64,000 bases of DNA from Anaerolineae bacterium (GTDB lineage: Bacteria > Chloroflexota > Anaerolineae > Aggregatilineales > Phototrophicaceae): assembly GCA_022841825.1 (NCBI GenBank), contig JALHQT010000005.1:186001-250000 (forward strand), given 5' to 3'. A model generated the notes under the pieces. That model was not told where the DNA came from, searched no databases, and saw only the letters and a list, made by a program, of their open reading frames with translations. A program made the position numbers and the translations under genes. The first letter of the stretch is position 1, and the number at the start of each line of letters is the position of its first letter. Below are positions 29,266 through 62,488 of the stretch, piece after piece.

Positions 29266-30639
29266 ATGCAAAAGTACATTTCCGCCACACATGCCGCCGA
29301 TAATCTCCCCCGCAGCGTCGATGTCGTCATCATCGGCGCGGGTCCTGCGGGCAGTGCTGCCGCCTGGGCGCTCGACCGTGCGCAGCCCGGCATTCGCACA
29401 CTCGTCGTCGAACGCGCGGCGACCGTCGGCGCGGGCAGCTCGCGCGCATCGCTCGAAAACTTCCGCACCTGCTGGCCCTGCGCGCCCCTCGCGCGCATGA
29501 TGCAGCGCAGCGTCCACGTCATCATGAACGCCGACGATACCCTGGGCGCCGGCGCGCGCGACACGCTCCATCCCAAGCAGCAGGGCTATCTATGGTGCGC
29601 CTTCGACGAGCGGCAGGCGGCGAACTTCCGCGCCGATGTCGCCCATCTGCAAGGCATGGGCATCGACGTGGTGAGCTATCTCGACGGCGAAGAGGTCGCC
29701 TATCGCTTCCCCTGGCTGGGAAAAAACGTCATCGCCGCAAAGTATGACCCAACGGCAGGCTGGCTCGACTCCAACGCGCTGATCGGGCGCTTCCTGGCGG
29801 CAGCGAGCGGTGCGCAGGTGCTGCTCGACGCGGGCGATGTCCGGCTGCGCATTGAAGGCAGCGCGGTTTGCGGCGTCGAGACCGCGGCGGGGTTCATCGC
29901 CACGCCGCGCGTGGTGCTGGCGGCGGGTGCGTGGTCGGTCGAGATCGGGCGCGCGGCGAACATCCGCATCCCGCTCGAACTCCGCCCCCGTCAGAGCTTC
30001 ACGACCGGTTGGCGGCACGACGCCTTCCCGGAAGACGCGCCCATGTTGATCGGTTCCGCGCCCTTCCCCCATGTCCGTCCGGAAGCGCGCAGCGGGGCGA
30101 TCTTCGGCTGGGAATACCGCTGGCACCGCAAACATGCAAAGGGTGAGGGTCTAGGGACGCCATTCAAGGCGTCCGTGCATGATGAGCACGGGGATACACA
30201 TACGCCGGATGACGCCATCGAATCGCCTGTCGCCAACCTCGACGCGCTCAAAGACCCGCGCTTTCCGTCGATCACGCTGGCGCTGCTGGCGAGGCAGTTC
30301 GGCGATCTGCCGGGCAACGGCTTTGCCGACGGGCGCTACATGCGCTCGATCTACCACAACATCGGCTACTACGTCTATCGAGACGCGACGACCGCCTATC
30401 GTACCAACGCTGATGGCAGCCGGACGCCCTATGAGAGCGAACGCGCCATCCTCGACGCACATCCCGATGTCGCGGGCTTGTTCCTGTCGATTGCCCACGT
30501 CGGGCACGGGGTGATGAGCGCGCCAGCGGCGGGCGAGATCATCGCGGCGAAGGTGCTTGGGCAGCCGCTGCCCGACCCGATCTTCGCGGACTTTGGCATC
30601 AACGTGCCCTGGGTCGCGCATGACGAGAATGCGCTATGA
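29266..30639 (+). CDS. FAD-dependent oxidoreductase of the DAO (glycine/D-amino acid oxidase) family
   Basis: The 457-residue protein opens with a Rossmann FAD site, VDVVIIGAGPAGSAAAWAL, followed by a Glu-Arg at the end of the second strand (LVVERAA). A second FAD contact region, VVLAAGAWSVEIGRAA, lies near residue 220, and the C-terminal GHGVMSAPAAGEIIAAKVL closes the FAD fold. DAO enzymes oxidise amines of small substrates; the substrate here is unknown. Residues 296-304 (LGTPFKASV) are encoded by a GTAG-type repeat copy at 30151-30176. The segment between FGWEYRWHRK and SPVANLDALK is therefore probably an expanded surface loop. Confidence 0.88.
   Translation: MQKYISATHAADNLPRSVDVVIIGAGPAGSAAAWALDRAQPGIRTLVVERAATVGAGSSRASLENFRTCWPCAPLARMMQRSVHVIMNADDTLGAGARDTLHPKQQGYLWCAFDERQAANFRADVAHLQGMGIDVVSYLDGEEVAYRFPWLGKNVIAAKYDPTAGWLDSNALIGRFLAAASGAQVLLDAGDVRLRIEGSAVCGVETAAGFIATPRVVLAAGAWSVEIGRAANIRIPLELRPRQSFTTGWRHDAFPEDAPMLIGSAPFPHVRPEARSGAIFGWEYRWHRKHAKGEGLGTPFKASVHDEHGDTHTPDDAIESPVANLDALKDPRFPSITLALLARQFGDLPGNGFADGRYMRSIYHNIGYYVYRDATTAYRTNADGSRTPYESERAILDAHPDVAGLFLSIAHVGHGVMSAPAAGEIIAAKVLGQPLPDPIFADFGINVPWVAHDENAL
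30151..30176 (+). repeat. REP-like hairpin in frame inside the FAD oxidoreductase gene
   Basis: The copy matches the RAYT-associated unit at all but two of 26 positions: the first base is C instead of G (CTAGGGAC), and the loop reads TTCAA instead of TTCAT. The stem GGACGCC/GGCGTCC is intact. It is read in frame as LGTPFKASV without a stop. Confidence 0.85.
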
Positions 30640-56602: not shown

Positions 56603-56739
56603 CGTGATGAGGCAAGAGGTGATGCGGAACGAAGACAGCAACCTGACAGCCGCCATTCATGGCGTCCCTACGTCCGATCTACTGGAGGGGCGGCATTTTT
56701 GACCTCCGCAAATATCCTCATCATCTCCTGCCTCATCAC
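56603..56739. repeat. Heptad-type hairpin with a GTAG-type repeat fragment inside
   Basis: GTGATGAGGCA (56603-56613) and TGCCTCATCAC (56729-56739) are perfect 11-base arms, with nearby degenerate GATGAGG and CCTCATC units extending the match. The right arm ends one base before the stop codon of the EEP-family gene (56740). The loop of about 115 bases includes a rearranged GTAG-foot copy at 56652-56671. Confidence 0.7.
56652..56671 (-). repeat. Partial GTAG-foot repeat with altered loop
   Basis: On the minus strand the copy begins GTAGGGACGCC and stops after the complementary GGC, so the outer part of one arm is missing. The loop reads TTCA in the orientation opposite to the other minus-strand copies at 61794 and 62186, which suggests rearrangement within the palindrome. 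Confidence 0.65.
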
Positions 56740-61731: not shown

Positions 61732-61793
61732 CGAAAGCGTATTTTTGTGTTTTCCTGACCCATATGATGGTAGAGGTCGACAAGAGAGAAGCA

Positions 61794-61819
61794 ACGGACG
61801 CCATGAATGGCGTCCCTAC
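61794..61819 (-). repeat. GTAG-foot REP-like hairpin upstream of the RAYT gene (left half of a pair)
   Basis: On the minus strand: foot GTAG, stem GGACGCCA/TGGCGTCC (perfect 8 bp) and a four-base loop, followed by a terminal GT. An identical unit extended to 30 bases recurs inside the RAYT gene (62183-62212). Confidence 0.92.
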
Positions 61820-61832
61820 AACCGACGATCCT

Positions 61833-61858
61833 GTAGGGACACCATTCATGGTGTCCGT
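61833..61858 (+). repeat. GTAG-foot REP-like hairpin upstream of the RAYT gene (right half of a pair)
   Basis: Same unit as at 61794, opposite orientation, 13 bases away. One stem pair is changed from G:C to A:T on both arms (GGACACCA/TGGTGTCC), a compensatory change that keeps the hairpin. Confidence 0.92.
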
Positions 61859-61897
61859 CTCTCGCATGACGAACCTGGGAAAGGTGATCTGAAAACG

Positions 61898-62431
61898 ATG
61901 CAGCCCTTACCGCAGCGTAAATCACCGCGTTTACACGGATATGATTATCGCCGGGAGGGTGCCTATTTCGTGACGATCTGCACGCATAATCGCGTGGGGT
62001 GCTTTGGTGAGGTTGTAGGGGAACAGATGGCGCTAGCAACCCTGGGCGAGATTGCGCACAGCGAAATTCTGACCATTTCTCATCATTGGACACAGGTCGA
62101 TATTGATGCGTTTGTGGTCATGCCCAACCATATCCATATGATTGTCGTGATCGACCAGGGTAAGGCAGCGAACGCCATGAATGCAACGGACGCCATGAAT
62201 GGCGTCCCTACAGGCAAGCCGCCTACGTTGGGAGAAATCGTTGGCAAGTACAAAGCTGGTGTCACACGGAAAGCGCGCGAACGTCGCGTCATCGAAGATG
62301 GTTATCCGTTGCGGCAATCTCGGTACCATGACCATGTCATCCGCAACGAGGCAGATTTAGCGCGCATTCTGAATTACGTTGAATTCAACCCTGCCCGATG
62401 GGCGGAAGACACATTCTTTTCCGCGAGATGA
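61898..62431 (+). CDS. REP-associated tyrosine transposase (RAYT), IS200-like Y1 fold
   Basis: From ATG 61898 the protein has 177 residues. The family opening RLHGYDYRREGAYFVTICTHNR is clear; the metal-binding HUH pair lies in VVMPNHIHMIVVI; the catalytic Tyr is that of QSRYHDHVIRN, and the closing LARILNYVEFNPARWAED is typical of RAYTs. Known RAYTs bind and cut REP sequences next to a GTAG tetranucleotide at the hairpin foot. Copies of such a hairpin flank the gene: an inverted pair ends 40 bases before the start and one begins one base after the stop. Another copy is read in frame inside it as residues 97-105 (TDAMNGVPT), in the linker after the HUH motif. Confidence 0.9.
   Translation: MQPLPQRKSPRLHGYDYRREGAYFVTICTHNRVGCFGEVVGEQMALATLGEIAHSEILTISHHWTQVDIDAFVVMPNHIHMIVVIDQGKAANAMNATDAMNGVPTGKPPTLGEIVGKYKAGVTRKARERRVIEDGYPLRQSRYHDHVIRNEADLARILNYVEFNPARWAEDTFFSAR
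62186..62211 (-). repeat. GTAG-foot hairpin inside the RAYT gene, in frame
   Basis: The unit is the same 26 bases as the copy at 61794, in the same orientation. A partial duplicate (AACGCCATGAATG, 62171-62183) lies directly before it. Translation is TDAMNGVPT. Confidence 0.9.
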
Positions 62432-62432
62432 T

Positions 62433-62458
62433 GTAGGGACGCCATTCATGGCGTCCGT
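62433..62458 (+). repeat. GTAG-foot hairpin one base after the RAYT stop
   Basis: Foot GTAG at 62433, stem GGACGCCA/TGGCGTCC, same sequence as the other RAYT-linked copies. It starts one base after the TGA at 62429-62431. Confidence 0.92.
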
Positions 62459-62488
62459 TACCATCGCCCGTAGGTCAACCGTCACGCT

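Follow-up and report, generated by a model that had tools for sequence, protein, structure and literature searches.

Background

Intragenic REPs inserted in frame are an already known kind of element (PMC3733652, PMC6006769). According to the part of PMC3733652 covered here, palindromic repeats carrying the GTAG tag, a tag linked to the REP-associated tyrosine transposases (RAYTs), lie within open reading frames (ORFs) of several species without breaking the frame, O. terrae having the highest number. These intragenic REPs are single or dimeric, occur in unrelated proteins, sometimes as two inserts in the same ORF, and their tolerance is attributed to linkers or loops; Chloroflexi are listed among the phyla with GTAG repeats. 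The transposase genes themselves may also be hosts: in 2018 REPs were described in frame inside tnpAREP genes of subclass 2.4, between the HuH and Y motifs (PMC6006769, in the part covered). The first-described Rickettsia palindromic elements are longer, about 150 bp, while RPE-4 and RPE-6 are CGTC-tagged, CGTC repeats being without a known transposase in the portions of PMC3733652 and PMC10969869 covered. A term search of PMC2817692 gave no match.

In this work, we describe a REP copy lying in frame within a DAO-family FAD oxidoreductase gene, in a window (the whole stretch of DNA analysed) of 64,000 nucleotides from a genome of 5.9 Mb, hereafter G000, and compare it with the other copies of its family and with the RAYT-like gene they adjoin. 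The relevant features are collected in Table 1.

Table 1. Position of the REP copies and associated genes within the window
Feature	Position	Strand	Remarks
DAO-family FAD oxidoreductase gene, host of the insert	29266..30639	+	457 aa; Pfam DAO 3.3e-32; 34 orthologue rows align
Approximate extent of the 14 codons absent from orthologues of the commonest length	30148..30189	+	from codon alignment and lengths; ends depend on the alignment
REP copy in the DAO-family gene	30151..30177	+	in-frame peptide LGTPFKASV; CTAG foot, not GTAG; 7-bp stem
Degenerate REP-like palindrome, not adjoining the RAYT-like gene	56648..56667	+	2 mismatches to the stem pattern
Consensus REP upstream of the RAYT-like gene	61793..61819	-	half of a tail-to-tail dimer
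Second half of the upstream dimer	61833..61859	+	variant stem GGACACC/GGTGTCC; spacing 40
RAYT-like (REP-associated tyrosine transposase-like) gene	61898..62431	+	NCBIfam REP_Tyr_transpos E 5.6e-18
Consensus REP inside the RAYT-like ORF	62185..62211	-	in frame, (A)TDAMNGVPT; 22 residues past the start of the MPNH motif
Consensus REP just downstream of the RAYT-like gene	62433..62459	+	pattern match

Results

The repeat unit and its family

The unit in the DAO-family gene, CTAGGGACGCCATTCAAGGCGTCCGTG, differs from the RAYT-linked unit, GTAGGGACGCCATTCATGGCGTCCGTT, at 2 of 26 bases, as claimed in the initial annotation, or at 3 of 27 when the last base is counted. The in-frame reading of the peptide, with no stop, also holds within the DAO-family ORF, whose start was set at its first ATG. 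The hairpin stem, reported as intact, was slightly overstated: a T-to-A change removes the closing A-T pair, leaving 7 bp against the 8 of the consensus. The first base is changed as well, turning the GTAG foot of the family into CTAG. Predicted folding energies of this copy and of the consensus are nearly equal (-15.1 vs -15.2 kcal/mol). The REP is directly followed by another small inverted repeat (GTGC...GCAC; 30174-30191), for which folding alongside the REP is predicted; this may be due to chance.

Four matches to the unit, allowing up to 3 mismatches, are found in the window, and none in any of 100 shuffled versions; at the same threshold the whole of G000 contains 102 copies, and a reversed-pattern control none. 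Scoring 63 stretches around listed copies (100 of the 102), together with the copies of the window, gave 118 copies under a looser definition. The GTAG foot is found at the start of 105 of them, 29 tail-to-tail dimers are formed, and the consensus stem of 8 bp falls inside the 5-13 bp range of the GTAG-tagged REP superfamily, with which the family agrees in tag, stem, copy number, dimers and RAYT association.

Length of the site in DAO-family orthologues

The orthologue set comprised 34 rows, some partial, corresponding to 31 distinct proteins 51-63% identical; the length count excludes the window's own copy (L016), L060, which is limited to 71 residues, and hits L037-L045, which are weaker. 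At the site of the insert the window protein has 88 residues, and the orthologue rows have 60 (n=6), 71 (9), 72 (4), 73 (3), 74 (11) or 75 (1). The initial annotation had held that orthologues with a loop of equal length and unrelated nucleotide sequence would speak against an insertion; none of the 34 rows reaches 88, all being 13-28 residues shorter. Compared with the commonest length, the window protein has 14 residues more at this site, and the REP accounts for 9 of them.

Given a loop that varies naturally in length and relatives as distant as these, the DAO gene alone is insufficient as proof of insertion, and the length comparison is, by itself, only suggestive. The distance of the relatives also makes the insertion junction unreadable in the DNA at this site. 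Two further genomes of the genus are rich in REPs, G002 and G013, and a close orthologue of the enzyme is absent from both (best E 2.6e-15 and 2.9e-15, respectively). An AlphaFold2 model for which 12 rows were used (11 of the 15 orthologue loci plus the window protein) has a low mean pLDDT of 61, with residues 261-318 below 50, and the two listed solved DAO homologues do not align across approximately profile positions 240-360, where the insert lies.

The variation of the loop, from 60 to 75 residues, is what would be expected if an ordinary variable host loop contained GC-rich codons which happen to form a palindrome. This coincidence is, in our judgment, extremely improbable, given the negative shuffles, the 102 copies against none in the control, and the occurrence of the unit in 22 other ORFs.

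REP copies in other genes

A copy was called coding when the hexamer coding score exceeded 0.2 on both sides and a single ORF of at least 100 aa was present. By this definition, 23 ORFs with coding-like flanks contain 38 of the 118 copies in frame. Of 3000 random 27-mers drawn from the same stretches, 2154 were called coding, and their frames were near-uniform; REPs are therefore depleted in genes, yet numerous there. A Pfam family could be assigned to 17 of the 23 ORFs, that of the DAO enzyme included. Hosts include GMP synthase (GuaA), Fmt, PrmC, MurB, AnmK and PhnI, as well as a biotin carboxylase, an aconitase-family (LeuC-type) enzyme and an amino-acid kinase/aminotransferase ORF; one of the six ORFs without a Pfam family (L111) is a second RAYT-like gene. 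Some ORFs contain several copies: five are found in a 1540-aa ORF (L115:861-5480) and three in an 833-aa one (L105:1471-3969).

Six of the 23 hosts, GuaA, Fmt, MurB, PrmC, the LeuC-type enzyme and AnmK, were compared with solved homologues, and all feature extra residues at the REP, which in PrmC fall between its two domains. For four of them, relatives were also aligned. LeuC relatives are 13 residues shorter at the site in 26 of 29 rows, the others having 61, 50 and 43 residues; the one with 61, equal in length to that of the window genome, carries an unrelated insert elsewhere. MurB relatives are 11 residues shorter in 28 of 29 rows and 12 shorter in the remaining one, GuaA relatives 10 shorter in 24 of 29, and AnmK relatives at least 10 shorter, 2 of the 29 rows (L270, L272) missing the site. 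The GMP synthases of the nearest REP-bearing species, G002 (L155) and G013 (L156), are only 6 and 7 residues shorter and have odd loops of their own, 4 and 3 residues, respectively, above the usual length, in which no REP sequence is found.

The empty sites of LeuC and MurB are near-uniform in length among relatives, and these two cases of a like insert make a strong case for reading the extra residues of the DAO-family enzyme, too, as inserted. The length apparently inserted differs from gene to gene (33, 39 or about 42 nt).

It might be proposed that the translated peptide, or the hairpin formed in the mRNA, has acquired a selected role in the host gene. The hairpin of the DAO copy indeed stays nearly as stable as the consensus by predicted energy, and divergence is not significantly higher in coding copies than in the rest (mean 2.34 vs 2.20 mismatches, p 0.52). 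Equal divergence, however, fits a recent insertion too; moreover, the hosts are functionally unrelated, the relatives compared lack the insert, and both the foot and one base pair are gone from the DAO copy. A selected role is accordingly regarded as improbable, and the inserted peptide probably has little function.

The RAYT-like gene and its relatives

The putative transposase gene of the window is named RAYT-like because its scores are under the curated cut-offs: 65.2 bits against 80 for the NCBIfam model NF047646 (REP_Tyr_transpos), and 16.5 bits (E 0.0093) against 23 for Pfam Y1_Tnp. Similarity to the solved TnpArep has an E value of 0.0078. The catalytic Tyr of this ORF is presumed to lie where it does in the family. 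Consensus REPs lie on both sides of the gene and also inside it, the internal copy (Table 1) being absent from the initial annotation.

REP copies are unevenly distributed among the 15 genomes of the genus: 40 are found in G002, 13 in G013, one each in G006 and G009, and none in ten genomes. Outside G000, 22 copies, a part of those present, were examined, and 1 of them was called coding by a score trained on G000 loci. Relatives of the RAYT-like gene are found in 8 of the 15 genomes and, among the matches listed at an E value of 1e-25, in at least 43 of 400 genomes of the phylum. Five members of the genus have RAYT-like genes, yet no copy of the REP of the window.

In 31 of 47 full-length, open RAYT-like genes, that of the window included, the linker following the HUH motif contains a perfect hairpin with 8 or more base pairs; the 47 genes, being related, do not count as independent, and the GTAG foot is missing from a few of the hairpins. 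Altogether 36 such hairpins fall in the linkers and 2 elsewhere; of 2350 codon shuffles, 47 had one in the linker. Eleven further loci were left out, being fragments, frameshifted or stop-containing copies, repeats of genes already counted or, in one case, motif-less. The linker hairpin is often of the type GTAGGGGCG...CGCCCCTAC, in frame; examples are found in L284, L290, L294, L275-L277, L281, L291, L304-L306, L319 and L330. The feet are mostly read in the two frames favoured by the host-gene copies (see below), GTA in 20 of 25 forward and xCT-ACx in 20 of 28 reverse instances, and the three tail-to-tail dimers measured within linkers have a spacing of 1 mod 3.

Reading frames and dimer spacing

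The consensus unit is free of stops in four of its six frames. The 38 coding copies are read as TDAMNGVPT in 19 cases, VGTPFMASV in 15 and NGRHEWRPY in 4, the fourth frame being unused: two frames out of four account for 34 copies (binomial p 6e-7, assuming equal chance for the four frames). When one copy per ORF is considered, the bias is 19 of 23 (p 0.0026). A comparable regularity is seen in the dimers. Coding tail-to-tail dimers have a spacing of 40 (n=6), 37 (4) or 39 (1), and the others of 39 (n=14), 40 (3) or 38 (1). A spacing of 1 mod 3, which puts both halves into the two favoured frames, is found in 10 of 11 coding dimers versus 3 of 18 others (Fisher p 2.6e-4). All frame and spacing statistics are to be read considering that the coding score was trained on the same loci, that the two halves of a dimer do not count as independent observations, and that thresholds were set by us.

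Landing at host CTAC/GTAG sequences was considered as the main rule, and rejected. CTAC in coding DNA is mostly found in the Tyr frame (698 of 854), reverse copies lie mostly in another frame (19 of 23), and MurB and the DAO enzyme show no such coincidence; frame counts of GTAG and CTAC in coding DNA fail to predict the observed REP frames. In two hosts the REP foot does coincide with host residues: in LeuC with a conserved position, the Tyr of RDYT, and in GuaA with a Pro-Thr common to the two nearest relatives.

Host copies and RAYT-linker feet use the same two frames, and a 1 mod 3 spacing is shared by host and linker dimers, not by most of the others; both observations are consistent with the possibility that the transposase gene itself keeps the family translatable, since a source copy in its linker would have to stay stop-free and harmless. 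Copies leaving the linker would then arrive in other genes ready for read-through. We consider this suggestion tentative and rather unlikely, and tolerance of the peptides alone could give the same pattern of frames and spacing.

Discussion

The unit within the DAO-family gene is a real member of a repeat family, and its reading as an in-frame REP insertion is supported. The family, the open frame, the residues in excess of every orthologue row, the empty sites of relatives and the recurrence of this pattern in many genes are documented directly in the sequences and their alignments; the route followed by the copies has to be deduced. We consider it highly probable, on the whole, that a GTAG-type REP, dispersed by a RAYT, was inserted in frame in the DAO gene, copies breaking the frame having been removed by selection.

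On this account, the insertion would have added about 14 codons, 9 of them belonging to the REP, to an already variable stretch, the ORF staying open. The RAYT-like transposase may have moved the REP copy as single-stranded DNA, and purifying selection would have removed inserts which shift the frame, add a stop or encode a badly tolerated peptide. The survivors would be mostly those read as VGTPFMASV and TDAMNGVPT, along with dimers whose spacing keeps both halves in these frames. Several points stand against this explanation: the DAO loop varies and its relatives are distant, the DAO copy is without the GTAG foot and one pair, the RAYT-like protein scores under the cut-offs, coding copies are rare among those examined in the other genomes, five members of the genus have RAYT-like genes and no copy of this REP, and GTAG and CTAC frame counts fail to predict the REP frames.

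RAYT-driven movement is what we infer for these copies. A true REP insertion could also have arisen without a RAYT, through recombination between repeats or a template switch from one repeat to another. No 3' flank common to the whole family is apparent in the base counts of the copies, the inserts differ in length among genes, and the foot falls on host residues in LeuC and GuaA, as microhomology would give: all of this is compatible with recombination. On the other hand, 105 of 118 copies keep the GTAG foot, a tag which the covered part of PMC3733652 links to RAYTs, and a RAYT-like gene is present with REPs on both sides. A few shared 3' flanks point in the same direction. The 12-mers common to flanks of different copies (40 of 349 were covered on the 5' side and 40 of 76 on the 3' side) mostly correspond to the dimer partner and spacer; L077, L098 and L106, however, share the same 3' word directly after the REP, as if co-copied with flanking DNA from one source, and L074 and L117 form a second small group with common 3' words. 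Recombination between repeats is, in our opinion, rather unlikely, and dispersal by a RAYT is preferred.

With predicted translated REPs in 23 ORFs, including those of usually essential enzymes, this single genome is a good system to study the entry of short mobile palindromes into proteins. Biased frames and shifted dimer spacing together provide a measurable signature of selection, applicable to any REP-rich genome, and point to a testable link with the REP carried by the transposase gene. Annotators may recognise in such inserts the origin of odd short insertions seen in enzymes that are conserved elsewhere along their length. In the parts of the literature examined, neither the frame bias nor a difference in spacing between coding and intergenic dimers was found described; bias, spacing phase and host lineage are presented as new here, although the first two may already have been published.

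Comparison with known systems

The likeness to Rickettsia palindromic elements, put forward in the initial annotation, is a fair analogy, as these too are palindromes found in frame in genes for unrelated proteins (PMC3733652, PMC10969869, in the parts covered). The family described here differs from them in its GTAG tag, in its length of about 27 bp, and in having copies which adjoin a RAYT-like gene.

The pattern of a REP within a RAYT gene is already known from the covered part of PMC6006769, and the gene of the window is likened to subclass 2.4 by its features. As in that subclass, the REP lies between HuH and the presumed Y, the frame is kept, and hairpins with a double foot are found in the genes of many RAYT-like relatives. 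Unlike the three consecutive G-C pairs of subclass 2.4, the bottom of the stem in the G000 family is GGA/TCC; furthermore, the DAO case concerns a host gene, and that of subclass 2.4 a transposase gene.

A nearer precedent than the Rickettsia elements is provided by the intragenic GTAG-tagged REPs of PMC3733652. In the part of that paper covered, as here, short GTAG palindromes, single or dimeric, lie in frame in unrelated ORFs. The emphasis there is on genes of DNA synthesis and repair, whereas the hosts identified in this genome are mainly metabolic and cell-wall enzymes, and the copies described here belong to another host lineage and have another stem sequence.
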